This document shows, one piece after another, positions 9,257 to 63,062 of a stretch of DNA of 64,000 nucleotides. How positions within the stretch are numbered: position 1 is the stretch's first letter; each line of letters opens with the position of its first letter. The translations under genes were made by a program, and so were the position numbers. The notes beneath the pieces were generated by a model. The model saw nothing but the letters and a program-made list of their open reading frames with translations. It did not search any database and was not told the DNA's origin. Source of the DNA: Isoetes taiwanensis (taxonomy: Eukaryota > Streptophyta > Lycopodiopsida > Isoetales > Isoetaceae); assembly GCA_021234155.1 (NCBI GenBank), contig JAJEKV010000161.1, positions 401,316 to 465,315 of the forward strand, given 5' to 3'.

Positions 9257-10334
9257 TTAGACATCATAGAATAATAAATGCGTTTTTGAGTCTTCATCCA
9301 ACTCATCACTCTCACTCAGATAACTATTTGTATCTAATAAATTATTCATATTTTTCAGACATCTCTCTCGGGTTTGTAACAGTTCTATTACAAATAACCC
9401 TATTGTATCCCCCTCTAAGTCAAAAAAGGATTGCAGGTCGTGTACCATAATGCCATGTTTTCGCCTTAAGTTTGCATATGCAATACATTCAAGCAAAGCA
9501 TGGTGTTCATCCTCCACTTTATCTTCCCCACAAACTTGGCAAAATCTCTCAGGTCTAGGAATGACGTGCCCCCATCTGCCTACTTCCACTTCCAAGTGGT
9601 GTGAACTCAATCTCATCCTGCTGATAGCGTGCCTTTTCTGTATTGAGATATTTTCCCACAAATACTTGGCTGTCTCCAACTGAGGATTAAATCCCTGTCT
9701 ATATAGTATCATTTTTGTTTTGGAATTTTGCCATATTTTTCCCTTGACCCTTTCTGCCACCCAGCTCCTCAAATCATCTATTCTGACCGCTTCTTCCCAT
9801 TGGATATCCCATTTCAGCAGCCATCTTTTCAAGTCATTGAACCATCCCTTGTCCATAGTGGATAACATTGCCAAATGTGGTATTCCGGAGCCTTCCATAT
9901 TCAGCACCTTTTTAAGATATCTGAGTGCTCTTAGAATGGCTTGTCCTTCCAAAGGCATTTAGCCACATTCTGCTAGCATCATGGCATATGGGGTTTGGGC
10001 CTTAAACCCTAATTCCAATCTCAGGAATTTTTTCATAATTTGCTCTAAGTCATCCCACAATCCTTGTGGTAGACTCGGTCCCCATATCTCACTGCCGTAC
10101 AGGACTACACTCTGTACAAGAGACTCAAAAAGTCTGACTTTTAACTGCCAAGCCCATAAAAGGGCTTTTCTGCACATACTATGCATCGCATATAAAGCTT
10201 TATTCCCGCCTTCAATTCTTTGCGCGATGCAATCATTCCATCTGTGATTTCTATGGAATATTAGGCCCAGATACTTGTATGATTCACAAGTTGCAACTGC
10301 ATCCTGTTTATAGGTAAAGTGTTCCTGTCTAAGA

Positions 10335-10479
10335 TGTAATGGGCCCATGGGAGACCGCTCGAGTAGATCTTGATGTCGCGTTCCAGAGACACCGGCATAA
10401 ATGGGTAGAAGCGACTACTCATAAACGTCTAGACGGTTTTGCCCAGTTGGTTAAGGGCATGTCGGTTAGGAACGTTACA
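10335..10479 (+). repeat. TRIM 5' LTR (145 bp)
   Basis: Near-identical to 10801-10945. It carries a pol III A-box-like stretch 'tgcccagttgg' at 10440-10450. Confidence 0.9.
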
Positions 10480-10481
10480 TT

Positions 10482-10512
10482 TGGTATCAGAGCAGGGCTC
10501 GAGTTCGAGTCT
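10482..10512 (+). promoter_or_regulatory. TRIM primer-binding site followed by B-box-like motif
   Basis: TGGTATCAGAGC (10482-10493) is complementary to the 3' end of plant initiator tRNA-Met. It is followed at 10502-10512 by 'agttcgagtct', close to the tRNA B-box consensus GGTTCGANTCC. With the A-box-like stretch at 10440 this gives a tRNA-like A/B pair across the LTR junction; pol III use is only a suggestion. Confidence 0.6.
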
Positions 10513-10800
10513 CCAGGGGGGAAAATATGACTTGGATGTCATATAACACGTAATTCCGCCGTGAAGGTGAAGGGGAAGGACGGTGTGGTTGTGGCCACAG
10601 TAGTTTGTGATGCTCGAGGACGAGCATATTCTGGTGGGAGAGATTGTAACGGGCCCATGGGAGACCACGCGAGTAGAAAAATATGACTTGGATGTCATAT
10701 AACACGTAATTCCGCCGTGAAGGTGAAGGGGAAGGACGGTGTGGTTGTGGCCACAGTAGTTTGTGATGCTCGAGGACGAGCATATTCTAGTGGGAGAGAT

Positions 10801-10945
10801 TGTAACGGGCCCATGGGAGACCACTCGAGTAGATCTTGATGTCGCGTTCCAGAGACACCGGCATAAATGGGTAGAAGCGACTACTCATAAACGTCTAGAC
10901 GGTTTTGCCCAGTTGGTTAAGGGCATGTCGGTTAGGAATGTTACA
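10801..10945 (+). repeat. TRIM 3' LTR (145 bp)
   Basis: Starts TGTAACGGGCCC and ends TTACA, followed by the target duplication TAAGA. Few differences from the 5' LTR imply a fairly recent insertion. Confidence 0.9.
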
Positions 10946-11600
10946 TAAGAGCTCCTACAGTCATAATATTTGTCTTTTCGAGATTTACCTGCATCCCTGT
11001 TGAGTCACAGAAGTTGGGCAAGGCATCTAAATGCTGCTGCATATGATCTTTAGGTCGTGCAAAAATGACAATATCATCCGCATACATAAGCAATTGTATG
11101 AGCTGCTCCTGAATTTCTATTCCCTCAGAGCCACTTTTCATGTAACCAATTTTCCAGACTCTCAATAAATAGACCAAACAAGGCCGTAGATAGTGGGCAG
11201 CCCTGTTTTACCCCGATGTTACTCACTATATGCTCAGGTTTCTCCACAGAGAATGGCCAAGATAGCTGCACCAATACTTGTTCATATAGAATATGTATAG
11301 CAGATTGAATTTCCTGTGGCACCTGCAATTTCTTTAAGCGGTTCCATAACTGTTCTCTGGGAACTTTATCGAAAGCCTTCCTGAAATCTACAAAAGCCAC
11401 ATAAACAGGTTTCCTTGTGCCTTTGACTTTATCAAGAATAGCTTTAAGCATTAGCAGATTATCCAACGTAGATCTTTTTGCTCTAAAACCTGCTTGCATC
11501 TCAGATCTTTTGTTATTTGCTTCTGCCCATGCACTGATTTTCTTTTCAAGTATGGTAGCTAATAATTTTGAAAATAAGCTACTTACCATAGTCGCAACAT

Positions 11601-41856: not shown

Positions 41857-44800
41857 GGAAGTTTGCTAAATCATACTCCTGATTGTTTTACAGTGGTAAA
41901 GAGGAAGAAGGATACTCCTACCAGCGGGTCGACTCCTGCCAAGAGGCAAAGGACAGACGACCAAGATGCGACACCCTATGATCTCACCTTGGATGATGAA
42001 GGTCCTATTCTTGTCGCAACCACTGACCCTCCATGCCCTGAAGAAGAAATGGATGAGGGTGCCGAGTGGTATGTTGACCTCGCCAAGACAAATGGCAAGC
42101 TGGACTTAACACTCTTCTCCAGGAAGAAGGTAGCGGACAAGATGACCAAGCAAGGGATCGTAATCTCCTGTGAGGAGGAGAACGACACCAGTTGCAAAGT
42201 GCTTTTGGAGATCACACGTAAGCAAAAGAAGGATCTGCTCCGACTCACTAACTGTAGATCTACTTCTTTCAAAGAAAAATTGATGAATACAGATCCTAAT
42301 GGTGAGACGTGTTATAAGTATGGTTGGCCTGATGATGTAGCAATTACGCCAGTATCCATATGCCACGGAGTCACAGCCGTGCGTAGAGGCATGTTCAGTA
42401 AACCAACTCCAAGTCACTACCTTCATCAAGCTAGAGAATTAGCTGACTTAAAAGCTGCCAACAGGAACCCGAAGTTGGAAACAGTTGTTAAACCTGTGCT
42501 TGTCGAGGGCATAGAGGTTTCAGGGTTCGAAAATGAACAGGACAGGGTGGCGCAGCTGGAGGCTATGAACAAGTTGACTGAGTACGCTGAGCATTATCCA
42601 TTGGGTCTTAAGAGAACTTGCACGCTCCATGTGAAGCGCCTCATACGTTCACCAATTTCTAAATACGTCAGTAGACGATATGATCCAGCACATGCTATGG
42701 AGATCGTTCAGAGTATGATTAGCAATCCAGGTCAAATGCCTATGCCAGCCGATGTGTTACCCTGGGATCCTCAGACGAACAAGCCCGTTGTGTGGTCTGA
42801 CGCTGAGGCGTTAATACAAGATGAGCATATTCAATTCGTCGTCATTGATGGGCAGCATTCCGTTGAGGCACAGAGGGCTCTTATCACGCAAGCAGAACAA
42901 ACGGGCCAAACAATGTTCTACAAGCACTATGCTTACAGGAAGTGCCGATTATTGGCTGGCAGCACTTCACCTGCGGATTTGGCAGAGATTAGTGCAACTT
43001 TAAACGAAATGGGGAGGACGTTTTTGTATAAAAGGTAATTTACTATAATAAGCCTATATTTTTTATATTAAAGCACGCCCGGCGTGCTTCTATACAGATC
43101 ACGCCAGGCGTGCTTTGTTTCTGAGTGAAGCACGCCAGGCGTGAATTCATTTCATCTAATCGTTTGAATTCACGCCTGGCGTGCTTTATGCAAAAACAAA
43201 GCGCGCCTGGCGTGATTTAGATAGAGTTAGAAGCACGCCCGGCGTGCTTTTCAATCCATTTGAATCACGCTTGGCGTGCTTTCCACAATAAAGAAAGCAC
43301 GCCAAGCGTGAATCAATCGATTTAAAATCACGCCGGGCATGCTTCCTAACCATTTCAAATCACGCCTAGCGTGTTTATTGTCTACAGCACTCATCCATTT
43401 TGTGTACTTCTGTAGTCCATATGTTGAGCAACTGCGCCATGCTCGCCAACAATGGGTGGAATATGGCTGCCCATTACCCTCCAGACAGGGTGGGACGAAG
43501 TCTGAGAACTTCAAGCAGCTGGAGCGGACTCTATCGCAGACTATTATACAGGATAAGAAGTTTGCTAAAAGACCAAAGAGAAGAGGTGCTGATGACAGCG
43601 CAGATCCTTCTGATGGCACATCCAGACGGTCAGGTCCAACAGACTCCTACAAGATTGTCTTCTGTAAGGAAGCAGTATGGAAAAAGTGGAATGAATTCTG
43701 GGATGCTTATGCTCACAAGCAACTGCCAGATAGCATGGGCAGGGTGCCCCCCGTGGATGTAAGCATCTTTGACCTGAATGTGACAGAGATGAGAAAGACC
43801 CAGGGGCTAGACGACGACGAGACCATCCATGTTCTAGATCAGTTGCTAAAGAAGGAGGTCTTATACAAGAAGAGTGCCTTCACTAAGGATAGGATGTCCT
43901 TTGTTGAGTGCTGCAGTCATGTGAAGGATGTACGTACCATGAAGTCAGCTGTGGGAGCTGAGCTACAAAAGCTGTCGGGGGATGTGGCATTATCTGAAAT
44001 TGGGTTACTAGACAAGTACAATGTAAGTAATGATGACATAAAGAAATATGTATTCTGGTCAAAGGACTTCCTAAAGAATTGGAAGGCTAAAAATACAAAA
44101 CATAAGGAGACTCTGCCGCCAAAGGTACTGGCTGAGTTGAGAAGAAAAGTGGCCCTTGTGAAAAAGATTACTGGTGAGGAAGACACTATCCAGTATTCAG
44201 TGTCAGTTGGGTACAAAGGGCTCTTACCAGAAGACCTTGCCCTTAAAAACATATCACTCTTTGTGTTGGACAGCAGAGGACAGCAGATGAGCCGGAACGA
44301 CTACTGCAGCTTCTTCACGAGCTGTACAGGGTTGACGACCGAGAGGTGCTTTACCATTGTCATTGTATGTCCGTCAGGTGAATCACATCTACATGCATTG
44401 TCCGCTGCTCATGATCTAGAGTGCATTAAAGTTATCAGAGAGGGATGCCTGATATACGATGATAATGACACTGAGCTAAGAACAGATCCCAAGATGGCAC
44501 ATGTCATCTACATTATGATCTCTATGGTAGCAGACGAGGAATATGATTCTGGTAAGGCCAAGGGTGACAATAGCACTGCATGGAGATGTTATATAGATGA
44601 GTATCCAGACTTAAAAACCATATTCTATCATAGAGATAAGAATCCGGAAGATGAGTCAGAAGAGGATGAGGATCGGGACCTTCGGCTAGAAGGTGAGATC
44701 AAGTACGAGCTACTAACTAAGGAGAAGGGTCCCTTGAATAAAAATGGGTTCCCCAGAAATATGGCTGCTTACCTAGTCGAGGCATTTGCTCCAATTGACA

Positions 44801-45339
44801 CGACGTGCGTGGAGCTCCATGTTGGGGGCTATATTGGACGACAGGCTCTGATGGCTGCTAGAAGATGTCATTGCCTTGTAAGTGATGCGCAGGCAAAAGA
44901 CTTTCTTGACCCATTCCTCATGTATGTACTTGCCAAATCTCCAAAAGGCCCGTGTGGGAACAGGGAAGCTGCAGCAATAACAAGCCTTGACCTGGAAACT
45001 AGTAATGCACATCTTGACCTGGAAACTACAGATGAAGTACATTTTAGGTTGGATGGAGAAAAAAATGTGATGGCGCAGAACTTGGACGGGATCTTTGCCT
45101 CCCTTAATAGCAGCACTACACCGAATTTTACAATAACTCCGCCAGTATTCAATGAATCAAATGAGCCGCCAGTTGATCACGCAAGCGACTCTAGTGATTC
45201 CCAGGTAAAGAAAGTAATATCATTTGTGAAGAACGCAGGAGAACTAACAGAAAATGACAATTGTAACAGTCAGGAGATAACGAAGAATAAGAATGGCGAC
45301 GAGGAGAATGACGCCATTGACAAGAAACCGAAGATTAAG
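41857..45339 (+). CDS. Element 1 ParB-like / degenerate DNA methyltransferase fusion
   Basis: Exons 41857-43034 and 43416-45339 join in frame (AAAAG|GTAATT ... TGTAG|T). An upstream exon ending at 41115 also fits in phase; no ATG is identified. Basic and acidic N-terminus, then a ParB-like domain (about residues 250-375 of this span): SPISKYVSRRYD, EHIQFVVIDGQHSVEAQRAL (compare GGNHSFKARR in element 2) and ISATLNEMGR. After the intron come a linker helix (DQLLKKEVLYKKSAFTKDRMS) homologous to element 2 and the methyltransferase-like part. There the motif IV site reads FVLDSRG instead of ADLPYG and the motif I loop reads ELHVGGYIG instead of DAFSGSGTT. So it is probably catalytically dead but kept open over about 1030 codons. 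I infer a DNA-binding role. Confidence 0.72.
43074..43373 (+). promoter_or_regulatory. Ten-copy CACGCCNGGCGTG array inside the intron
   Basis: Motif centres at 43080, 43106, 43137, 43177, 43208, 43240, 43272, 43304, 43335 and 43367. Seven of the nine steps are 31 or 32 bp; the others are 26 and 40. Most copies are full 13-bp palindromes; a few carry one or two changed bases, mainly CGCGCC, GCTTGG, CCAAGC, GGGCATG or CCTAGC. The array fills the intron between the ParB-like and methyltransferase-like exons. A protein-binding array is inferred. Confidence 0.85.
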
Positions 45340-45880
45340 GTATGAGCTCGCGCCAGGCGTGATTTAGTTTGTCTTTGGCTTTGAATGAAATCACCCCGAG
45401 CTTGCTTTAATCGTGTCTGATGCGAAACAAATCACGCTGAGCGTGATTTAGTTGCGTCTTATCGCCATGTACATAACACGCTTGGCGCGGTTTTGTTTGT
45501 TGCGTTGTATGATATAAGAGTGTGAGGACTGTCATAGTTTGCTGACTGGATACCATGTTTGATGTTTCAGCAACCCTTGCGCTTCTAAAAAGATTTTGGT
45601 GTTCGACCTGAACGGAGTTCTTTGTACGACTTTTCCGAATGATAAAGCGTCTTCAGATCAGTTTCACCAAACACCAAAGTGGATCTATCCGCGGCCAAAC
45701 ACCAAACACCAAAGTGTGTCTATCCGCGGCCGCACCTGAAAAGTGTGTCCATTAATAATGATTTGGCTCTGGGGATGACAGTGGCAGAAGTGTTAGAATC
45801 ACACCCAGAACTAGACAGAAGTGCTCACATGGAACCACACCTTCTTAAATACCCTAAGAAGTATGGATTGGTCCCCTAAC
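45340..45880 (+). pseudogene. 3' region of element 1 gene with FCP1/HAD-like exon remnant
   Basis: Donor AAG|GTATGAG at 45339/45340. The intron holds degenerate motif copies (near 45353, 45392, 45437 and 45478). The plain acceptor (TTTCAG at 45570) gives a short tail (QPLRF, stop). An acceptor at the AG before 'attttggtgttc' would continue in frame as ILVFDLNGVLCTTF, resembling the first motif of FCP1/NIF-type HAD phosphatases as found in plants, then reach a stop. A ~33-bp tandem duplication ('tctatccgcggcc' twice, 45685-45735) disrupts this part. A further open frame (YPRPHLKSVSINNDLALG...YGLVP) runs to 45879. Probably decayed. Confidence 0.4.
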
Positions 45881-48993: not shown

Positions 48994-49580
48994 TCAATCA
49001 AGTTGCTGTAAATAGTCTGTATCCTGGGGCATGCATCTAGCAATGGCTGACCACATGACCACATCAGGTTCCAAAGGAAAGCTAGATACAAATTCTTCTC
49101 CTTCAGTTATCCAGCCAATACGTCCAAGAAGGCCAACTATAGATCCATAACGTTCTGCAATCCCGCTGGTGTCAAAAGTTCCAATAAAAGAAAGGAATAT
49201 ATGAAAGCTCTCATCAAGAAACCTTGCATGACTGCATGCACAAAGAATGCAAAGAATTGTAACACTGTCAGCTTTTGCACCATTTTGCTGCATTTTGTTA
49301 AATAACTGAAGGACCTCTTTTCCCTGCCCGTGATGGCCATATATTGCAATCATAGCAGTCCATGTCAATGTATTCTTTAGAGGCATCTCATTGAACATTT
49401 TCTGTGCATCCTCTAAACTTCCGCACTTGCCATACATGTTGATGATTGCAGTCCCAAGAACAATATCCGGTTCCAGGCCACTAGTCATAATGCTTGTGTG
49501 AACTGGCCTGCACTCCTCTAGAGATGTTAGGGAGGCACATGCATTCAACATATTTACGAATGTGACCTTATCTGGCTTAA
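48994..49580 (-). pseudogene. PPR protein gene, 3' part, cut by element 2
   Basis: PPR proteins bind organellar RNA. This part reads FKPDKVTFVNMLNACASL, LGTAIINMYGKCGSLEDAQK, WTAMIAIYGHHGQGKEVLQL and so on to ...DVVMWSAIARCM and a stop; a full E/DYW tail is absent. The apparent start upstream of 49580 lies in the transposon. The 5' part is at 57954-58690. Joining the halves with one TTAA gives the uninterrupted local frame QQCLKPDKVTF, exactly the expected PPR pattern. Confidence 0.85.
49577..49580. other. TTAA target duplication, left
   Basis: TTAA directly outside the left terminal inverted repeat of element 2; its partner is at 57954-57957. TTAA is the hallmark target of piggyBac and Kolobok transposons. 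Confidence 0.75.
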
Positions 49581-49813
49581 AACAGGATTGCAAATTAAAC
49601 GAGAGTGTTGCGCCGCTCTCGTTTCAAACATTCCTTTTAAAAAACACTACTCTTTCAAAAAGCGGGACATTTTTAAAAAAGTCCATCACTTTGGAAATCT
49701 TTACACTCTCGACATGCAATTTCTACCCCCCTGCAACTTTTTAACTTCACATCTCTTGGCAAGGTTTGCCAAAAGTAGCTCTTTTTGACCATCGATGTTA
49801 ATTTATAAAAGAT

Positions 49814-50038
49814 AAAGTCTAAAAAACATCAAGCTAGAGGAAGCTAAAAAACTTTCTGCACTTATTTTTGAAAAAATCTGAATTAGGAATATCAACATTC
49901 AACAATTTCAATCAATTGCAGGCTACAAAGTCTAAAAACATCAAGCTAGAGGAAGCTAAAAAACTTTCTGCACTTATTTTTGAAAAAATCTGAATTAGGA
50001 ATATCAACATTCAACAATTTCAATCAATTGCAGGCTAA
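49814..50038. repeat. 113-bp near-identical tandem duplication in element 2
   Basis: 49814-49926 and 49927-50038 differ by one A in a homopolymer and the last base. It lies just downstream of the methyltransferase stop codon. A recent slip or duplication. Confidence 0.95.
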
Positions 50039-50071
50039 ACCACATGGAAGTCATAATTTAACAGAAGGAAA

Positions 50072-53000
50072 TTAAGTAAAGTCATATGTAATTTCATCAT
50101 CATCATTTTTGCTTGGCTGACCACTCTCTTGCACTACTGATTTCTCCTTGTCAGGTGACTTGTGCTTTTCTGTTGTTTCTTCTTCTACAACAATAACCTC
50201 AGCTACTTCCTTAAGCTCAACGAAAGTGGCTTCATCACTTAAGCAGCTCGTAAGTGGAGGTTGCACCTCGGAAGACGTCAGCTTGGCAAGGTCTGAAGAT
50301 GATTTGGCCCCAAGCTCTTGGTTCTCATCTGGAAGAGTTGGTAAGGCAGCTAGTCTAGTTTTTATGAAGTTGACGGCCTCTGCATCAATGTCCACTGCTA
50401 CACAATTACGACCTTTTTTAAGTGCACAAGCAATTGTAGTACCAGAGCCAGAGAAAGCATCGAGCACCCAATCTCCTGGACGGGAAAACATATCCAGGAG
50501 ATGGTTGATTAGCTTTTGTGGTTTTTGGTACTGGTTTACAATCCTGCCTTGTGCAGTAGGGTCTTGCAATTTCTGTAGAACGGCCGGAAATTCCAACACA
50601 TTGGAAAAATTTTGACAAGCAGCAGTGTTAAAATGATCCATGGTTCTTTTACCATCAAAACTCCAATAAGCAACATGAAGATATTCGACCTTGCTCAACA
50701 GCCTTGGCCCTCCACCATGGTAGTTTATATTAGTTTTGTACCTGCATCAGAAATATTGGCAATTTAACAAAGGCAATCCTATTCTGGAATAAGAATGCAT
50801 GATGTATCGTCTTAAGAAAACATTCAAACTAGACATGTTTGGATAGGTGCAAGAAAATTACCAGACGAGGTTCTCAAATCCTGCTTGTGTAGGAGAACCA
50901 AAGTGCTTAGCAAAATTTGACTCCACCAAACCAGCTTGCATGCTTGAATGAAAGACTACCAACCGCCAATGCTTTGCTGTTGTCACTTCCTTGATGCCAT
51001 TAATAAAATCATTGAATTCTAAATTTTTAAATGATTCATCATCATAACGGCTGTCCTTTAGCTTAAACCCATAAGGAAGATCTGCAACTACAAGTGTAAA
51101 GTCTTGGGGCTTTACCAAGCCAGCAAGTCTTCTACAGTCACCCTGTTGGATTGCATATAAATTATTTTGGTCAAACATTGTAAACCTTTCATAGTCAGAG
51201 GGAGCCACGGGGACCACAGCTCTTCTGGAAGCTAGTGTTCTTTCCTCCCTTGCTGTCCTGACCAAGTTCATGAAGCCCTCTGGCAAATCCTTGTTCTTCT
51301 TCTTATTCTGTACAGATTAATTTGTTGTGAGTCAACCAACAGCTTTCTCAAACAACAAGGCAATTTAAAAACATACCCAGCCTTCAAAGTTTGGAGCATA
51401 TTGAGCAATCTTTTCATCAGTTGTCGAGCTAGGGTAAAGCTCTCTGCATCTTTCCCAGGTCTCAACATTCAGTTGTTCCATTAAGCAAGTTTGGCAGGTA
51501 ATAACATTTTTTTGGCTGCAGACATTCTAATGTTAGCTATTTTGTAAGCAATCCAAAGAAATGGTGAATGGCATAAAATAAATACTTATTCCAGAATACA
51601 ACAAAGGTAAACAGAACATGGTAATCAGGTGCAAACAAGTCGATAAGTCAAAAACCTTTCTGAATAGCAAGTCACAAAACAAAGAATGTAAAGAAAGGTA
51701 TTCCAAAATAACTAAACTGTTAACACAATAATGTTTTTTCAAGAAACATCACTTACTTGTGCATTTCCTTTGACATTTCCTCTAAAGTGAAGTCCTTATC
51801 CACAACTTTTTGCAGCAACCGTTCTAGCAACACAGTATCTGTAACACCTTGCAGTTCCCTCCAAACAGTAATGGTCATCTCCTTTTTGGGAACATCAGAA
51901 CCTTTCTTCTTGTCCGAGACCTTCCCTTTAGTTTTCAGCTCCCCCCTTTCAAACATGTTAAATATTTCATTCTGCAAGTCCCAAAGCTGTGAAAACAAGC
52001 AAGTTTTGTTAGCACAAAGGATCGAAGCACAAGACAAAGTCTATTCCGGAATAAAAATTTATCTTACCCGACCATCCCTGAAGGCTAATTGAAACCAGTT
52101 GTCGTGGGAGATAAGCGACTGTCTTTTGTTTGCCTCATCATATTTAAGACAACATTCAATGGCACACGCTTCCTTTAGCTCCAAAGAACAAGCAGGTTTT
52201 TTCATGAACCCCTCTCCATATTTTTCCTTAAAAATAAGGTACTCCCTATGCATGAACCGAATTTTATCGACAAAGCTCATCTTCAATTTATACTCATTGT
52301 CAGCATTGTGAGTGTTGGCAATGATCTTTGCTTCTTCATCGGTCAAACCAACATAGACTGCACAAAGAACAGAGAGGTACCTAGGGTTGCAATTTTCTTT
52401 GTACAATTGTCTCCTTGCCTTAAAACTATGATTTCCACCAAGCACATAATGCAAGTAGCTCTCTGCATTTTCTTTGTCATAGTCTTCAGGGCTTTGACAC
52501 TGCCCTCTGTCCACTAAAACCACAAGAGGGGCCACATGTGCGTTGGGGTTGCTTCTAATTCGATCCTTCAGATTCCTCAAATGGTCTGCATAAATTTTTC
52601 TGACCTGAAGGGGTCTTTCACCAGCAGCATTTTTTGGAGGCAACTTTAAACTTGTCACTGGAAGATAGATTACACCCTGCACATGTTTTGTTTCATTTAT
52701 CTGTTCCACCCTCTCAGCAGTCTTATCTGCCTTCTTTTCCTTAATTGCAATACCAGGAGCCTTCCCCTTGCCTTTTGATCTTTTTCTTTGTTGCTCATCC
52801 CCAGAATCATCTTCAACCTCCACTCTTTGCAAGACTCTCTTCTTTGGTTCCTTTGCAGCCACAGTGTTCCTTGGCACACTTAATCCTTCACGTATATCAG
52901 AAGTTGAAATATTTAGCTCATCATTATCAAGGCTATCGGGTTCAGCCTCTTCTTCTGAATCACTGTAACTAAAGTCTTCACTTTTTGTACCACAAATATA

Positions 53001-53415
53001 CTGCAGCAGCTGTAGTAAGGTCTTCTTGTTAAGATAGTGATTCATATACTTGTACAGATGATCAGGCATCACTCTGTCAAGTTTAAAATAATTGTCTTCC
53101 AGAATCATGAACCCCTGTGTAGTTCGAATCGACAAACGACCACTTTCTCCAGACTCAGAGGCAGCAGAGCTAACCTCGTGCATTTGTCCAATGCACACAA
53201 AATTTGAATCTCTGAGTAGGCTCCTGCCCCTTACCTCTGCTACATGTAGGAAAGTAAGGGTGGAGTACTTGTTTCTGTAACCCCTGGTGATAAACCATTG
53301 AGTCTTTGGGTTTTCATAAGTTTTTGGTGGAGCTGAAGCTTCAACTCGTGCTTGGGGATGAGGTGTGCTTGATTGACCCTTGTGTTTTCTCTGCTGAGAG
53401 TCCTTTTTGTTAGAC
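50072..53415 (-). CDS. ParB-like domain fused to beta-class DNA amino-methyltransferase
   Basis: Five exons join with matching phases and consensus sites: 53415-52068, 51986-51757, 51515-51377, 51307-50862 and 50741-50072. They give about 944 open codons; a first exon upstream of 53415 is not identified. Domains: charged KR/DE-rich region (residues ~140-240); ParB-like domain (~250-380) with VIYLPVTSLKLP, YVLGGNHSFKARR and DEEAKIIANTHN; linker; then the methyltransferase, with motif IV DLPYG (~648), motif X NQYQKPQKLINHLL (~780), motif I DAFSGSGTTIA (~817) and motif II VAVDIDA. The order IV-X-I defines the beta class (M.HinfI/CcrM type), and DLPY points to N6-adenine rather than N4-cytosine. 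The acidic tail ends ITYDFT. All key residues are present, so activity is plausible. Such fusions are known from phages. Confidence 0.85.
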
Positions 53416-53663
53416 CTGCACCATATAAATAAAAATTGTAAGCAAGTAGCTTCAAAGTACAAAGTTTTCAAGTTTGTCACTCATTTTACTGTAAAATGCT
53501 TCAAAATTATCCTAGTTTGCTAAAAAGAATGCTAAAAACACTCCTTATAACAATTAAAAACTACTCTTAACAGCTTCAATTTAACACATTTTTTTGCTAA
53601 AATCTAGTAAATGTTTAGCTAAAAACTACAAATTTTTGTAGACAAGGAGAGTAAACACGCCAG

Positions 53664-54015
53664 AGTGTATTCCAGAATACACTTTGGTTGTCAGCAGAGA
53701 GCCAAAGTGTATTCCGGAATACACTTTGGCCTTGAACCGTAGGGCAAAGTGTATTCCGGAATACACTTTGCCCTCGGGAGGTAGTGAAAGTGTATTCCGG
53801 AATACACTTTCGCTTACTCCCGAGTTCAAAGTGTATTCCGGAATACACTTTGACCTCGGGCGTAAGCGTAAGTGTATTCCGGAATACACTTTCACTTGCT
53901 CCCGAGGGCAAAGTGTATTCCGGAATACACTTTGCCCTTTGGTTCAAGGCCAAAGTGTATTCCGAAATACACTTTGGCTCTCTGCTGACAACCAAAGTGT
54001 ATTCTGGAATACACT
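53664..54015. promoter_or_regulatory. 352-bp palindrome holding nine phased 20-bp palindromes
   Basis: Nine copies of AGTGTATTCCGGAATACACT (minor changes in copies 1, 8 and 9) start at 53664, 53706, 53748, 53789, 53830, 53871, 53912, 53954 and 53996, always 41 or 42 bp apart. The spacers are also mirrored, so the whole array is an imperfect palindrome centred between 53839 and 53840. It lies between the divergent ParB-methyltransferase and transposase genes. Frames read through it on either strand are artefacts. Confidence 0.95.
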
Positions 54016-54249
54016 GATTGTACTTTCTACCGTACCTAAAAGTGCGTCATGCTTACCTCTCCATTATTTCGTCTATGTAGAGTGGAATACGGTTGCAGTG
54101 GGTGGCGTCGAAGGCGCTGGAGGCGGCGACTTGGTTTCTGAAAGCGGAATATACTACTGTGGCGCAAAAAAATTTCCTTTTAAAGGTGAGGTTGCACACT
54201 TACAAGTTTTCTATGTGTAACAGAATACAATTCCTGATACGTTCTTGCA

Positions 54250-54312
54250 ATTGTGTATTCGAGAATACACTTTTGTATTCTGGAATACAATAATGTATTC
54301 TGGAATACCATG
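54250..54312. repeat. Additional TATTCYRGAATA motifs near the transposase start
   Basis: Three variants in 60 bp (gtgtattcgagaatacac; tgtattctggaataca; tgtattctggaatacc), about 60-115 bp upstream of the ATG at 54368. A further copy, 'ctattccagaatacactt', lies at 57532, just after the transposase stop. Confidence 0.7.
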
Positions 54313-54367
54313 TCAACATGAAAAAAAGTTGGTTACTTATTTTAGCTTTCTTCTTTTAGTTCTGGCA

Positions 54368-57300
54368 ATGGCGGGTTCAATGTTCAACAAGCTTCCTCCA
54401 CCATTCCAACCATCTGATTCATCAAATTCTGAAGGAACCACTGTTCAAACCAGGTTTTGCTGTGAGGGTCGAACTTCTACACCTACTTCTACAAGGTGCT
54501 TGCTCCACTTGGACGAAACGCCAAGTCCATTACTGAGTAGACTGCCACAACCGTTCATCCCATCCCCTAGTCCGCCCGGGGAAACACCTCCTTTCTCAGC
54601 CACTCCTCCTGTTTCTACTAAACTTCCAGCACCTTTTGTTCCTTCCCCTGAAGCTACAGAGGTACCACCTCAACGATTTGTTCAGAGTACGCTACCCCCG
54701 TCTTTTGTACATTCTTCTACTTCAATCACACACAAAAGGCCAGCAGATTTCTCTGAGGATTGTCAAATACTGCACAACTTCTCCAACCAAGATCTAGCTA
54801 CAAACGAAGATAATGTTGCAGTGTTTCAATCCACAACAAGGACGATGTTTGCAGCCACACCTCTACAACATGATGCTTCAACAAGTGCTGCCACAACAAG
54901 TTACAACCCTTCTCCTCCTTTCAATATTTGCCCTCCTCCATGTCCAGGCACAACATAACGTGGTCTTTTTACTTCAAGCACACAACTGAACTCTCAAGAG
55001 GTCACCCCAAGAGTTGAACCTTCTTCAGATGATGACGACCTTGACCAAGCACAGCAACAAGGTTATGTGTTTTCTAACCAAGCTTCAAAGAAATTTAAGG
55101 TTGATTTAACCTTGCGTGCATGTTCCTCTGTAAGAAGAAAAAACCTCATGGATGAACAGAAGATGAGGAGAATTTTGAGAATAAAATGCTGCTCAAAGAA
55201 CTGCATCAGCAAATTTAACATGTCTGGACTTCGAGCAATTCGAGAAACTTACAGTTCAATGTCTCTAGCAGAACAAAATAGCTACTTGGCTTACCGTGTA
55301 AGACCAAACTACAACACCTTCTTGCACTACATTAGTGGTGAAGAGGTCTGTCAAAAATGCTTCATGCTTGTTCACCGTCTGGGCTCCACGAGAATGTCTC
55401 GTATACACAAAAGAATGGACAAGATCCCAGACATTAATTATCATTGTGGACCGAGGAGAATTGTTACAATGCATGCATTGTCTGCTGTTTCTTGGATGGA
55501 CAGATACTTTACAGAAACGTGTGAAAAGTTGCCAAACAGCGATGTGTACCATTTATCTGACAACATCACAAAAAAGGATATTTTTCGAGAGTACAAAGAG
55601 ACATGTGTCCAATCTCAACACATCTCTTATGCTCACTTTACTAGACTGTGGAAAAGTGAATTTGGCCTTGTGAAAATACCCAGGAAGCACAGGATGTCTG
55701 TTTTCTCCAAATGTGCAGAATTAAAAAGTCAGAGAGAAATGGCTAAGACAGAATCAGAGAGAAGTAAGTTAATGTTTTGTTTTCTAGGTTTCTTTTCCTT
55801 TTAAGTTGTTAACCAACTTCCTTCTTTAGATGTGGTGCAGCAGAATCTTTCTAGACATCGTGAACAACAAGCAGCAGAAAGAAGAAAGCTTGCTAAGCAC
55901 CGAAAAAAATCTTTGGAACGTCCCCTGCAATACATGTCAGTTGTGATTGACGGGATGGATCAGAAAAAGACTACCCTGCCTCATTTCCTGAACATTCCAA
56001 AAGATGTACCAGAAGAATGCTTTGTCAAAGTCCATCTTGTTGGAGCTATGGTCTTCAAAGGAAGTTTAAAGTGCAAAGTATTCTTGACATATCCTAACAT
56101 ACATGGTGATCCAAATCTCACTATCACTATACTCAATAGGGTACTGTGTGAACAAGACCAACTGCCTCCAGTTCTCTATCTGCAACTTGATAACACTACT
56201 AGGGAGAACAAGAACCAAACTCTCTTTGCATACTGTGCCATGCTAGTGGAACTTGGGATCTTCAAAAAAGTGAAGCTTGGATTCCTTCTTGTGGGGCACA
56301 CTCATGACCAGATTGATCAAATGTTCAGCAGATTTTCTGTGCGTCTTCGTAGAAAAAGGGCATTCCGACTTCCTACTCTTATTCGAGCTATTGAGGAGTC
56401 TTACACTCCAACACCTGTTGTTGAGCTGCTCCAAGAAACTGTAGATTTCAGAGAATTTGTCTTCTCCTCTCGTTCCAACAGAGAACAAGCTGTACACAAG
56501 TTGAATGATCTAACTTTTCAACATCATATCAAGTTTTTCTTGAAGAGTGGTGAAAGCTTCTTACAAGGAAAGAGGTACGCCACTACTAAAGAATGGAGTC
56601 CATCAGAGGGATTGAGATTCCTCAAACTAGTTCCAGACAGTTCCTTAGTTGAACGTGCTGAACAGATGCCTCTTAAAAATCCTAAAGAGGCCAAGCAGAA
56701 GAAAAGTACTCCAGCTGCCTCCTTGAAAGCCATTGAGAGTGGAATCTCATTGGGCTTTAAGTATTTTACAGAAGAAGACCAGAACTGGTGGAGAAGTTTC
56801 TTTCTTGAACAAAAAATTGTCAATGAGAATTTACTCCTAAGACAGTTGAAGCAACCTTTTCAGTGGCCTAATTCCTTCATCGAATCACAGAACCAGGCAG
56901 GTCCAAGTAGTGCCCCAGTAGTACTTCCAACAGTGGAAGATGAGGACCGAGTCATGTATCTTGGACCACGCCGAAGAAATGAGCCTATGGGTAATATCAC
57001 AGAAATCACTAAAGGTATGCTTATTGCTGTTCCAACTGTAGAGGATGACAAGGGTCGACCTTTTTGGATAGCAAAAGTAATAGACACGGTCAAAGAAGAG
57101 GGTTTAGTTACTAAACTTAAGATTCATTGGCTAGCAACACGTTCAGAAAATGCCTTTGAAGGAAGGTATGAGCTAGAAATGAGATCTCAAGGAAAAGGTA
57201 AGAAGTCAAAGAAGGTAGGTTGCAGGGATGAGGTAAGCCTAAGTGAAGTAAGTATTCTGTGTTATGATTTTAAGTTAAGATCTGACAATCGTCTTCGCCA

Positions 57301-57523
57301 GAGGACCATTAACTTACTAAAAAAAGCATGTAACTTTGAGGAAGAAGAGGAAGAGGATGGCAATGCTTCACCATCTGTTGATAGTGACGAGGAAGACAAC
57401 TCGAGTACTTCCTCAAGTGACAGTGAAAGAAGTGAAGGTGATGAAGATGGCATTAATGAAATAGATGATGACTTAGATCCCTCATTTGTTGGTCCTCACA
57501 CTTTACTGAACACTCCAAGGTAG
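54368..57523 (+). CDS. Transposase-like RNase H-fold protein, one nonsense codon
   Basis: ATG at 54368; exons 54368-55763 and 55830-57523 join as R-N at a 66-bp intron (GTAAGT...TTTAG), about 1029 codons. The N-terminus repeats LPxPFxPS-type motifs and is acidic near 55030. An in-frame TAA at 54956-54958 lies in this disordered part. Next comes a Cys cluster (CCSKNC; EEVCQKCF). The core follows: MSVVIDGMDQKKTTLPH (first Asp), LYLQLDNTTRENKNQT (second Asp) and FLLVGHTHDQIDQMFSRF (His/Asp). A C-terminal FWIAKVIDTVK...KIHWLATR stretch resembles a BAH/PWWP-like reader, followed by a Ser/Glu tail. The core resembles DUF7869-type proteins as I remember them; that needs checking. Inferred to mobilise element 2. 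Confidence 0.65.
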
Positions 57524-57953
57524 AGAGCAAGTCTATTCCAGAATACACTTTACTTGCTAAGTGTAAATTTTGCAAATACACTTTCCTGACAAGTGTAAAT
57601 TTTGTATGTAGTTGTAAAGATTTTATTGTGAAATTCGAAAATACCTGAACTTTTCTTACAGACTTTTCTTCAATTATTACTACAAATCAAATTCCCCTTG
57701 ATTCAGGTTTTTCTCTAAATATTTGTTTTCACGTGAAAATTTAACTGTAAAATGTGTCAGTTTTTGCTGGTAATTTGCTCTTCCTGCAAAAAAAATTTGA
57801 CAATTTTGGGGGGTTAAAACACAAAAAATCACCTCCGTTTTTGTATTTGACCTCATTTGACCCCCTTTTATGCCAAAATTTAGGGAATCTTTAGAGAATA
57901 TTCCTTTTGCTCCCGTTTTGATGATTTCCTCTCGTTTAATACGCAATCTTGTT
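57524..57953. other. Right end of element 2
   Basis: 3' flank of the transposase gene: one palindrome variant, two 'aagtgtaaattttg' repeats, AT-rich DNA and the right terminal inverted repeat at 57929-57953. The minus-strand open frame here is only the PPR frame read on into the transposon. Confidence 0.7.
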
Positions 57954-57957
57954 TTAA
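57954..57957. other. TTAA target duplication, right
   Basis: Second TTAA flank of element 2, partner of 49577-49580. Confidence 0.75.
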
Positions 57958-58690
57958 GGCATTGCTGAAGCATTGCCTTGAAAAGGCTAGCAGCTTTCTT
58001 GCCATGGCCATATTGGGCATAAGCAGCCAGCATGGCATTCCACGCAACGACGTCATGTTCCATCATCTTGTTGAACATTCTCCATGCTTCGGCAACATTC
58101 CCACACTTGCCATACATGTCAACAAGGGCAGTTCCTATAAGCATATCCAACTCTAATTCAGCATCAAGGATACAGGCATGGATAAGCTTGCCACTACCTA
58201 AGCTTTTTAAACCATAACGGGCCTTCAGGATAGCCATAAATGTGTCTTTATCTACCCAAATGCTCTCTTGTTGCATTTCCCTAAAAACGGCACAAACTTC
58301 TCTGCTATCAGCACTTGGGTTTCCTATCATTGTAGTCCAGGATATAGCATCACGTTCAGGCATCTGCTGAAATACGAATCTTGCTTCTCCCATGCTACCA
58401 CAATTGTTGTACATATTCTGAAGGGCATTCCCAACCATCGTGTTTGATTGCAGACCCAGGTAACAAACAGGCGTGTATCAGCTTACCCCTTGCAATTTCT
58501 TCAACCGAATCAAATCCACCAAGAATGATGAGAAATATGATATCATTCGGCATTAACCCACTTGCCTGCATCTGATAAAATAAAGAAATAGCTCCACTAG
58601 CATATCCATGCAAAACATATGCTGCAATTAAGGGGAAGGCCGTATATATCAGCTGGAAAGTGGTTTATCCGGACACCCATTATCAGCCAT
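57954..58690 (-). pseudogene. PPR protein gene, 5' part, cut by element 2
   Basis: It reads FPLIAAYVLHGYASGAISLF, KLIHACLL, then after a frameshift near 58440 GNALQNMYNNCGSMGEARFV, SWTTMIGNPSADSREVCAVF, TALVDMYGKCGNVAEAWRMF and WNAMLAAYAQYGHGKKAASL, up to the element 2 insertion. These are PLS-type PPR repeats continuing into 48994-49580. The N-terminal part is missing; the LINE tail begins about 45 bp further on. The gene was therefore hit at least twice and also carries its own frameshift. Confidence 0.85.
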
Positions 58691-59196: not shown

Positions 59197-62100
59197 TCAA
59201 GGATTATCAGTTCTGTAATCAAGAAATGCATTGGAGTCCATTGGAAGTAAATCATTCAATTTGAGCTTGAAGAAATTGTATAATCCCTCAAACTCTCCCA
59301 ATGTGTCCCAGGCTTTATCATAGTTGTCTCCCTTCAAATTTTTGTGTGCCATTGCAGCCGCCAACACCTCCATCTGAAAAGCACCTTTAAGCCAAGATAA
59401 GTCCTCAATTCTCCCTTGAAATACACACCTATTTCTATGTTTCCAGAGAACCCAAATAGCAATTTGAAAAAGAGTGTTTTTCATAGTGCTGTTCATGCAA
59501 AAGAGCTCAATAAGGTCCTGAGTAGAATTCACTCTTTTATTGAAAAGCGAGGATAGCCACTGCCAGAAAGGAAGGATTTTAGGACAGGTGAAGAGTGTGT
59601 AACAGACTCACGGTGGCCACAGAGTAAAGGGCAGTTTTGGTAAAGGGGGGCCTTAGCAATTTTCCGGGTATGCAGGTTTACATTGCAAGGAATGCCATTT
59701 CTTGAAACTAGCCATACAAAAAAACTGATTTTTGGCGAGCAATAGGATTTCCAAATGTTTTTGCTCAATCTCTTGAAGGAGGCTGCTGTGAGCTTCCATC
59801 TGATTTTAGTGCTACTGTCTTGAGAAGGAGCAAGATACTCATAACCGGATGCCACACTGTATTTTCCAACTTTATTTTGTCCTTTCACCATCTTGCTGAT
59901 TCCCCAAACATCTCTTGAACTTGGGGTCCTGTTGTTTATAGATAACTTAAATCCCTCCACCTTACTGTTTATATGCTTCCAAATAGATAAATCTAATCTA
60001 GAGGGGTTTTGAATCATATTTTTCACTTCCTCCCACTTAAACCACCTCTCATCCTCTTTATTCCAGAGGTCCTTTAAACATACTATCCCTGCCACCCTCC
60101 ATTTCTTATAAATCTTAGGGTGCTGACTAACTAAGTTAGTTTTATCTTTGGCAAAGGAGGGGCTCCACCACATAGAGACATTGGCAAGGGAATCCTCTTC
60201 AAGAGGTATAGTCGAGAAGGAACCCGAGATAGCGTTCCAAGCTTTAAGAATATTCTTCATGAGAGATGAGGAGTAATAATTAGGCTTAATGTTAGTGAAA
60301 GCTGAGTGAGGAAGTTCATGGTCAACTCCATTACTCTTCTGAATTTTACTAGAAGAGAGCCAGTGATGAATAAATTGGAGAGCCGGAGAGTCTTGATTGT
60401 CTAAGGCTCTCCACACATATTTAGCAATTAATGCCTGAGCATGCTTTTGCAAATGTTTACAGCTGATACCTCCATCCTTTTTTTTCCTGGCTATCTCATC
60501 CCAAGAAACTAAGTGCACTCCCTTCCAGATGAAGGATCTAATGGTAGCTTCAATCTGTGAATAAGTTTTAGTATCTGCTATGAAGGCAGATGAGAAATAC
60601 ACATGAGTGCTGGCCAGCACCATATTAGCAATATGTGTTCTAGCTGCAAAGGACAAATTAAGCCCGAATAAACTTGTCTTTCTCTTAATTCTATCAACTA
60701 TTGGTTGCCACAAGCCTTTTAGCTGAAGAGATGCATTAATTGGGAGGCCAAGAATCTTGGTTGGTTCATTAGGATGAAGACATTTGATTCCCTGCAGGTC
60801 AAGGTTATTATTCTGCTTATCCCAAAGAATGTGGCATTTGCTCATATTTAGCATAACTCCAGATGCTATACCAAAGTTGTGAACCTCATCAAGAAAGGCT
60901 TTCAAATATTTGGAGTCTGCCTTGAGAAAGACAAATGTATCGTCTGCGTATTGCATTATAGTGAGCTGCTTATTACTCCTAGGCATATTGAGGCCTTCAA
61001 GCACTCCTTGAGTTTGTAGAAGCATCACCCTTCTAGCAAGAATCTCTGCCACAGCTATGAATAGATAGGGCGAAAGTGGACAACCTTGCCTAACCCCTTT
61101 CCTTAAGGGGAAGAACTCAGAAACTTCTTTATTAACTTTAATGGTAGCTGAGGCATGGCTATTAAAAGATATGATTCTATTAGCAAGATCCTTTTGGAAT
61201 CCTAACTTCACTAGCACTTTCTCAAGAAAATCCCATCTAACAGTATCGAAAGCACGTTTGAAATCCAGCTTGAGAAGAATAACATCTTGGTTACTTGCTT
61301 TAGCCCAATGCATGCCTTCATGAGCAGCTATATAATTATCCAAAATGAAGCGCTTGGGTAAAAAGGCAGATTGGCAGGGGCTTATTACCTTCTGTAACTG
61401 GGGCTTAATCCTATTCGCAATGATCTTGGTTATGATCTTATAAGTAGCATTCGTGAGAGAAATGGGCCTCCAGTCATTAATTGTTTCAGGATTAGAGGTT
61501 TTAGGGATCAAAGTAATAAGGCTAGTAGCAACAGCTGGATGTAAGTATTTGGCTTTCCAAGCACTTTGAATCATATTAATCAAGTCCTCCTTAAGAGTAT
61601 CCCATAACTCTATGTAGAATTCTGGAGGAAGCCCATCAAGCCCCGGGCTTTTGCCCCTGCTCATTGATTTGAGCGTATCAAAGATTTCGACTTCTTCAGG
61701 CATAACCATGAGATCTTCTGAAGAGTCATCCTGGGAGATAGATTCATCCTGGGAGATGGATTCTAAAATTTCATTTTGAATTCTGTCTATCTCAGGGTTC
61801 GATATAGGAGCCTTAAATAAATCAGTGTAGAACTCCTTACATTTCTTCATAATGCTGCCTTGATCGTATATTACCTCACTGTTATCCAATTTAAGCTGTG
61901 TAACTTGACTATTGGCCACCCTATTCTTAGCCATTCTAAAAAAATAAGCAGAGGAGGCCCGGTCCATATTGTTATAGACTTTAACTTTAGTTCTTAGCGC
62001 CATCCCTTTACAGTATTCCTCTTCAATTGCCTTAATTTTAATCTCCAGTTCAGCTTCTTCTTTTTGAAGCCTCAAGTCATGAGGGTCTTGGATGAGTCTC

Positions 62101-63062
62101 ATTCTGACCTGTTTCATTCTGTCAAGGTAGGCTAATTTTTCTTCCCTTTTCTTTTGGTTAAGAGCCTTACCCCAATTTTTAATCCATCCTTTCACCTCTT
62201 TAATATTATTGTAGAAGCATTTCATTGACTGTGAGGGGCCTACTCTAGGAAGTTCTTTGTAGAAATTTCTAAAGTCAGCCTTGAATTTCTTATTGAGGAG
62301 ATATGAGGAATTAAATTTAAAGGGAAGATTACTAGTATTAGAAATCGTGGCCAGATCTACCTTCTCCTGAACAAGAATAGGGAGGTGATCCGAGAGAGAG
62401 GCTGTGATATCAGCGGTAATGATATAATCATTTCCTCCGTTGGCAGTCCAATAAACTCTATCCAGATTGCAATACACTCTCTCTTTCTCCTTTCTTTTGT
62501 TACTCCACGTATAGTTAGTGGTAGATGAAGGTATGTGAGTAAAGTTACCCATTATGAGAAGATTTTCCCAAGCTTCTCTCTCTGCATTGGACATCCTAAG
62601 CTCTTTTCCTAGCTTATCATGCCAAGAAGGAGTGTTGTTAAAATCTCCCATTAGAATCCATTCTGTAACATTGAGCGTGGGGACAAATTCTTCAAGCTCT
62701 TTCCACAATGTGGCTCTATCTTTAGATGAGTCAGCAGGAGCATAAACATTAATCAATCCATATTTTTGATTATTTTTTGTAAATGTAATGGCTTGCCAAC
62801 TCCTAGAATCTCCAATTTTCTTCATATCCACATTGATATTCTTCCACAAACAAATGATGCCACCACTCCTGCCTTCAGCTGGGATCCAAGCAGAGGTAAA
62901 TTCTTTACTTATCCATCCTCCAAATTGTGATGATTCAAACTGAGGGAGCTTAGTCTCTTGGAGCAGAATTATATCTGCTTTATAATCTCTGATTGCACTT
63001 ATGGCACGTCTTCTCTTTACGGGGCTTTTAATCCCTCTTACGTTCCAAGAAGGAATCTTCAT
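59197..63062 (-). CDS. LINE ORF2: endonuclease, reverse transcriptase, zinc tail; one frameshift
   Basis: ATG at 63062; 1177 open codons to 59529. An apurinic-type endonuclease (residues 1-230) carries SWNVRGI, LLQETK, MGDFNN and the catalytic SDHLPI. The reverse transcriptase (about 480-760) carries LITLIPK, LKLDFKRAFDTV, GVRQGCPLSPYLF and QYADDTFVFLK, with both catalytic Asp residues. Then come the maturase-like GLPINASLQLKG...FIWKG region and the zf-RVT start (SPKISFFVWLVSRNGIPCNV). A frameshift near 59530 closes the frame, and the typical L1 tail (AIWVLWKHRNRCVFQGR) continues in another frame to 59197. Reverse transcription primed at the nicked target is the family function. Nearly intact and fairly young. 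Confidence 0.92.

Follow-up and report, generated by a model that had tools for sequence, protein, structure and literature searches.

A palindrome array between divergent methyltransferase and transposase genes in a DNA transposon of Isoetes taiwanensis: a candidate self-recognition array

The DNA analysed in this work, referred to below as the window, is a stretch of 64,000 nucleotides from the lycopod Isoetes taiwanensis (GenBank assembly GCA_021234155.1, contig JAJEKV010000161.1, positions 401,316 to 465,315 of the forward strand). It contains an 8,373-bp DNA transposon that is inserted into a PPR gene and splits it. The transposon carries two divergent genes, one for a DUF7869 transposase and the other for a predicted adenine-type DNA methyltransferase, part of which is weakly ParB-like, and between the two lies a row of nine palindromes at nearly constant steps, which may serve the element for its own recognition. 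An earlier note, made from the sequence alone, had described this row, assigned it to a mobile element encoding both a methyltransferase and a transposase, and located it between divergent genes; this description was borne out.

The transposon and its insertion site

The element and its boundaries are the following.

49581..57953, no strand: whole DNA transposon, 8,373 bp
49577..49580, + strand: target-site duplication TTAA, left
57954..57957, + strand: target-site duplication TTAA, right
49581..49605, + strand: left terminal inverted repeat AACAGGATTGCAAATTAAACGAGAG, methyltransferase end
57929..57953, - strand: right terminal inverted repeat AACAAGATTGCGTATTAAACGAGAG, transposase end
48994-49593 and 57680-58438, - strand: halves of the PPR gene, separated by the element

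The ends of the window element are the inverted repeats AACARGATTGCRWATTAAACGAGAG. Once the element and one TTAA are removed, a PPR reading frame of 368 amino acids is restored across the join. The element looks largely intact. Near the methyltransferase end, about 112 bp are duplicated in tandem (49814-50037), the copies being 99% identical.

When the genome was searched for the array, 93 matches were obtained, 40 of 1,447 candidates being scored, and 20 further stretches of 9.9 kb around high-scoring matches were examined; it should be noted that this sample is biased towards copies resembling the window array. Among the resulting 21 loci, both ends could be read in 12 (the window, L022, L023, L025, L028-L030, L032-L034, L036 and L040), one end in seven and none in one, while the ends seen in L021 belong to different elements. 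All 12 loci with both ends showed matching 4-bp flanks (in L025 once the printed end is shifted by 2 bases), and all 12 flanking sequences were different. The TTAA of the window had prompted us to consider a TTAA-specific, piggyBac-like insertion; the varied 4-bp duplications of the other copies rule this out. The genome contains the sequence TTGCRWATTAAACGGGAG, the repeat core of most other copies, 744 plus 713 times, and the reversed control not once. In L021, methyltransferase matches are found on both strands, and two methyltransferase-type ends stand within one 10-kb stretch; this locus is probably one element inside or beside another.

The two genes

The methyltransferase gene, on the minus strand, was modelled as five exons.

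52068..53415, - strand: first coding exon found (N-terminal region with the ParB-like part; true start not found), splice model
51757..51986, - strand: exon 2, splice model
51377..51515, - strand: exon 3, splice model
50862..51307, - strand: exon 4, containing motif IV (DLPYG), splice model
50072..50741, - strand: exon 5, with the main N6_N4_Mtase match and motif I, splice model and profile match

All five exons are free of stop codons, and the introns between them are of the GT-AG type. The spliced product matches N6_N4_Mtase at 9e-18, and its top match in the PDB is the adenine methylase CcrM (1.2e-9), the best set including also MboIIA and RsrI. DLPYG is found at residue 648 and SGSGTT at residue 818, so that motif IV stands ahead of motif I, as is the rule for the beta class of these enzymes. 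A search for homologues, in which the 7,994 candidates with the most shared words were scored, gave one borderline match. The gene looks intact and is predicted to encode an adenine-type DNA methyltransferase; its weakly ParB-like part is considered in the Discussion. Elsewhere in the window, a second, faintly ParB-like open reading frame (ORF) of 391 amino acids (41863-43038, + strand; PHROG E 0.11) is followed by an ORF of 668 amino acids (43339-45345, + strand) with no match in Pfam, PHROG or NCBIfam, and the pair is possibly part of another element of a similar kind.

The transposase gene runs in the opposite direction.

54368..54958, + strand: inferred first coding exon, Pro/Ser-rich (ORF; join to the next exon inferred without homologue support)
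55067..55804, + strand: middle part (ORF)
55832..57523, + strand: DUF7869 catalytic part and C-terminal part (ORF, profile match)

DUF7869 is the only family that the transposase matches, and no mention of it was found in the literature searched. By fold comparison, the C-terminal part (residues 681-796 of P0018) is BAH-like, with EBS, DNMT1 and MET1 among the matches; such a domain might guide insertion towards a chromatin state.

The palindrome array of the window

In addition to the array between the two genes, several sites of the same type are scattered over the element.

53664..54015, no strand: array of nine palindromic sites at steps of 41-42 bp, the whole forming a 352-bp inverted repeat
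54253..54312: three further, less perfect sites (54253, 54273, 54293) at 20-bp steps, in transposase intron 1, as inferred from splice-like sequence
52039..52056, no strand: lone site, methyltransferase intron 1
51586..51711, no strand: two degenerate sites, methyltransferase intron 2
50779..50792, no strand: degenerate site, methyltransferase intron 4
57531..57548, no strand: lone site directly past the transposase stop codon

The palindrome GTGTATTCCGGAATACAC is present nine times at 53665-54014; six of these copies are exact, and sites 1, 8 and 9 differ by a single base change each. The steps between them (42, 42, 41, 41, 41, 41, 42 and 42 bp) are symmetric about the centre, as the earlier note had it. 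Its description of 20-bp palindromes at a mean distance of 41.6 bp needs a slight amendment, in that the palindromes are real but their perfect part is 18 bp (GTGTATTCCGGAATACAC), reaching 26 bp (CAAAG...CTTTG) in several copies, and the mean step is 41.5 bp. The two arms of the inverted repeat (53664-53839 and 53840-54015) are 176 nt each, 95% complementary and joined without a loop. The mirrored spacers of the earlier note were also confirmed, mirrored pairs having a mean identity of 0.94 (four pairs) compared with 0.63 for all pairs (permutation p = 0.002 against shuffled spacers).

At up to three mismatches, the window holds 13 matches to the motif, where 100 dinucleotide shuffles gave 0.04 on average. 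Extra sites occupy three of the four methyltransferase introns of the window copy, and none of the 17 sites of the element falls in the 5.8 kb taken as coding, while the remaining 55.6 kb of the window, outside the element, contain one site. The site core at 53665-54014 includes TTCcgGAA, which corresponds to two inverted heat-shock-element units, a possible link with a host factor.

Arrays in other copies of the element

Both genes were matched in 15 of the 20 further loci, although in L024 the methyltransferase part lies about 4 kb off; L031, L035 and L037 gave a transposase match only, and L038 and L039 a methyltransferase match only. Promoter arrays consist of 3 to 12 sites each, at steps that are nearly all 41-43 bp. 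A second cluster, of 5-7 sites, is present in methyltransferase intron 2 of ten of the 20 further copies (L021-L023, L026, L027, L032-L034, L039 and L040), and in L028 five sites are found in intron 1 instead. Intron 1 holds one site in 14 of the 21 loci, and intron 4 one or two sites in seven.

When the sites with up to two mismatches were counted between the outer exon matches of each locus (leaving out L035, which has no exon match in the assumed orientation), none of 266 fell in the 83.0 kb of exon-homologous DNA, and all 266 fell in the 49.7 kb of other DNA. Because the sites are clustered, they do not represent 266 independent events; exon avoidance is, however, also seen in the lone sites of introns 1 and 4, of the inferred transposase intron 1 and past the transposase. 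With respect to the ends of the element, no site with up to two mismatches lies within about 0.95 kb of an end in the loci with an end read, L021 being omitted for its ends of different elements, except for the window site at 57531 (0.4 kb) and one in the shortened copy L030 (0.7 kb). The palindrome motif is absent from the terminal inverted repeats of the loci read. The exact 22-bp motif did not occur in the viral contigs of IMG/VR, from which records near the window's genome were possibly excluded.

Spacing, symmetry and site consensus

Pairs of exact cores 34-54 bp apart number 1,039 in the whole genome, compared with none for the reversed control, and 890 of them are at 41-42 bp. A further 60 pairs are at 34-40 bp (with 32 at 39-40 bp among the 50 listed), 53 at 43-44 bp, 20, by subtraction, at 45-49 bp, and 16 at 50-54 bp. 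The spacing in other copies, whose randomness would have spoken against the earlier note, is therefore not random. Within the range of steps covered (34-54 bp), no extra peak appears one helical turn up, the counts from 50 to 54 bp being 5, 1, 5, 0 and 5. The 181 spacers of the 21 loci (steps of 36-48 bp admitted) form 21 clusters, with less than 70% similarity between clusters in the inner part of the spacer, and 114 of the spacers belong to a single cluster; the modal step is 41-42 bp in 18 of these clusters, and 40 or 43 bp in the others. Small indels per substitution are no rarer in the array (0.066) than in the left flank (0.047), the value for the right flank being 0.142; these figures come from 58 of 210 locus pairs, the rest having been dropped for a flank less than 75% identical.

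The four-turn helical phasing of the earlier note found no support as a selected property, given the single peak at 41-42 bp with shoulders, the lack of a five-turn peak and the undepleted indels. Selection for phase is not supported, because an inherited tandem unit of 42 bp, which amounts to four turns, explains the spacing equally well.

The giant palindrome fared differently in the window and beyond it. Mirror symmetry at p < 0.01 was found in four of 17 promoter arrays (the window, 0.002; L023, L025 and L026, 0.0055-0.0075) and was weaker in L034 (p 0.03), while p was at least 0.09 in the other 12 promoter arrays and in all eight intron arrays, all values being uncorrected for 25 tests. 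The 352-bp inverted repeat is real here, but the giant palindrome must be rejected as a general design; with symmetry in so few arrays, it is rather one outcome of array turnover, through inverted duplication or conversion.

Alignment of 250 array sites gave a symmetric consensus, GGGCAAAGTGTATTCCGGAATACACTTTGCCC, of about 32 bp, with information near zero in mid-spacer. Since the sites were chosen for having at most three core mismatches, the conservation of the core is inflated, which does not apply to the flanking positions or to the flat mid-spacer. The central dinucleotide is CG in 168 sites, CA in 45, TG in 34 and TC in three, so that 79 of the 82 sites without a central CG have CA or TG. 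As these changes fit the decay of methylated cytosine, the array sites were probably once targeted by host silencing.

Discussion

A site that is both long and symmetric suggests a symmetric dimer, which makes the dimer-binding site of the earlier note a fair supposition. ParB proteins bind palindromes as dimers, and for this reason the methyltransferase is the natural candidate reader. On balance, and by a narrow one, we favour the view that the array is a self-recognition (operator) array of the transposon, bound by a dimeric protein of the element, for which the adenine-type methyltransferase with its ParB-like part is the best candidate. In favour of this view are the conserved, symmetric sites among variable spacers, the confinement of sites to DNA outside the exons searched, the recurrence of clusters between the divergent genes and in methyltransferase introns, the intact-looking methyltransferase gene, the CpG-type changes at the site centres and the precedent of VANC21. 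The 14-bp core within its palindrome of about 26 bp would then be the site of a symmetric dimer of an element-encoded protein, the candidate binding sequence of the methyltransferase being GTATTCCGGAATAC. Tandem duplication of a unit of 41-43 bp would have lined up sites in rows, both in the control region shared by the two genes and in the methyltransferase introns, by which the non-coding DNA of the element would be densely and specifically marked. The bound protein would set the activity of both genes, either because adenine methylation by the element opposes cytosine methylation by the host (anti-silencing), or by direct autoregulation. A more specific scenario, in which the ParB-like methyltransferase nucleates on the arrays, deposits N6-methyladenine and holds the element open against host cytosine methylation, would amount to an independent VANC-like, prokaryotic-type system in a land-plant transposon; we regard it as tentative and, taken as a whole, rather unlikely.

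Several observations weigh against self-recognition by the methyltransferase. Its ParB-like region (approximately residues 320-402) is below threshold, with E 0.014 for the PHROG ParB and E 0.036 for the NCBIfam ParB, and Pfam yielded DUF6551 alone (E 0.11) and no ParB family. The count of none in 266 refers to a set of exons without the inferred first transposase exon. In addition, L030 is a shortened copy of 2.4 kb that has kept both ends and a nine-site array and lost most of its coding DNA. Paired inverted-repeat ends 3.4-3.8 kb apart, known from their coordinates only, are present on contigs C4, C57, C179 and C224, and are perhaps non-autonomous derivatives that have kept or gained arrays; the coordinates place palindromes about 0.4 kb from one end in C4 and in one of the C179 pairs. 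The array of L030 and the palindromes of C4 and C179 could point to a role in transposition.

Such a role would belong to an array that is bound by the transposase and acts from within the element to enhance or regulate transposition, like the internal operator of phage Mu. The transposase is encoded by the array's own element, and the short copies just mentioned agree with its being the reader, but shortened copies may also retain an array by chance. The motif is absent from the inverted repeats, most sites keep a distance of about 0.95 kb or more from the ends, which argues against recognition of the ends by the transposase, and sites accumulate in the methyltransferase introns. The transposase is thus the less likely reader, and we consider its binding unlikely. 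The palindrome could also be the target of a host transcription factor through which both genes are expressed, a part that heat-shock factor plays in some plant retroelements. The location of the array between divergent genes, the resemblance of TTCcgGAA to inverted heat-shock units and the many plant elements that have borrowed host promoters are in keeping with this; however, the conserved palindrome extends over about 26 bp without the third unit of a heat-shock element, and sites are present in introns too, which makes a host factor quite improbable.

A palindromic 42-bp unit might also have spread by slippage or unequal exchange as a functionless minisatellite. A constant unit length requires no selection, the number of sites varies from 3 to 12, the side peak at five turns is missing, and indels are no rarer in the array than in the left flank. 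This explanation, which we hold to be decidedly improbable, sits poorly with a core that is conserved where mid-spacers are not, with clusters at two separate places, with lone sites outside the arrays, in several introns and past the gene, and with a modal step of 40-43 bp common to all 21 spacer clusters (though 114 of the 181 spacers are in one). The idea that the giant palindrome acts through its structure, extruding a cruciform or, if transcribed, forming a hairpin RNA, is very improbable indeed: it draws on the 95% inverted repeat of the window and on the mirror symmetry of L023, L025, L026 and, more weakly, L034, but the lack of symmetry at p < 0.01 in 13 of 17 promoter arrays and eight of eight intron arrays largely refutes it as a mechanism common to the arrays.

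Sola-1 elements make 4-bp target duplications, and those found here fit Sola elements. For Sola2, duplications of 4 bp have been described (PMC3627910). The gene pair itself is not new, because the Sola-1 element of Ectocarpus has the same pair on opposite strands: in Sola1-1_Ec32, of 21.5 kb, a ParB-like plus N4/N6 methyltransferase gene lies opposite the transposase, and the authors, who mention similar proteins also from elements of green and red algae, suggest that such proteins bind the transposon that encodes them and modify it (PMC12477816). The available sections of that account describe no site array. The Ectocarpus element is algal and large, whereas the present one measures 8.4 kb and resides in a land plant, and the likeness to Sola-1 described here concerns the gene pair and the 4-bp duplications. 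In the literature searched, in the portions available and exclusive of Iyer 2011 and the Bostrychia genome, no element of this kind was described as carrying a palindrome array.

The VANDAL/VANC elements combine a Mutator-type transposase with a VANC protein. The present transposase matches DUF7869 only and the other gene encodes a methyltransferase; therefore, the element is not a member of that group, and it may, by analogy, work like one. VANC21 binds to tandem arrays of its motif, which are found both in introns and in upstream regions of the element that encodes it (PMC5735166). Motif density goes with specific localisation, the arrays expand and contract and evolve by tandem duplication, the target regions of VANC1 and VANC6 overlap host RNA-directed methylation, and in VANDAL21 the element protein reads the motif and removes silencing (PMC5735166; PMC10398659). 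What is shared is the presence of tandem motif arrays in non-coding parts, both introns and upstream regions. In contrast, the VANC21 motif is short and in one orientation, whereas here a long palindrome recurs at fixed 42-bp steps, alongside another transposase family and with a methyltransferase in place of the VANC protein.

In the bacterial ParB-parS system, a ParB-type dimer sits on a palindrome of about 16 bp, and several sites are clustered. The parS sites differ from ours in not being spaced at 42 bp, and, on the side of the proteins, the ParB-like match here is sub-threshold and no ParA gene was seen among the genes of the element. Element-encoded proteins also bind arrays of sites in the operator/internal activation sequence of phage Mu and at the subterminal TnpA sites of En/Spm. 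These systems, too, have repeated sites within the element for control and transposition, but Mu has a single short region and the Spm sites are subterminal, whereas the arrays described here are central and intronic.

At this locus, one mobile element carries a gene for a bacterial-type adenine methyltransferase that looks intact, together with an obvious candidate for its target. The I. taiwanensis assembly was built partly from nanopore long reads, and the question of adenine methylation could be addressed on these existing data, if the raw signal was kept. Should self-recognition be correct, the VANC strategy would have a second and independent example in this element, and a target would be supplied for the algal proteins that have only been suggested to mark their own transposon.

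Other features of the window

A LINE-type retroelement with endonuclease, reverse transcriptase and zf-RVT domains is located at 59529-63062 on the minus strand, and near-identical copies of a repeat of about 150 bp occupy positions 10332-10946.
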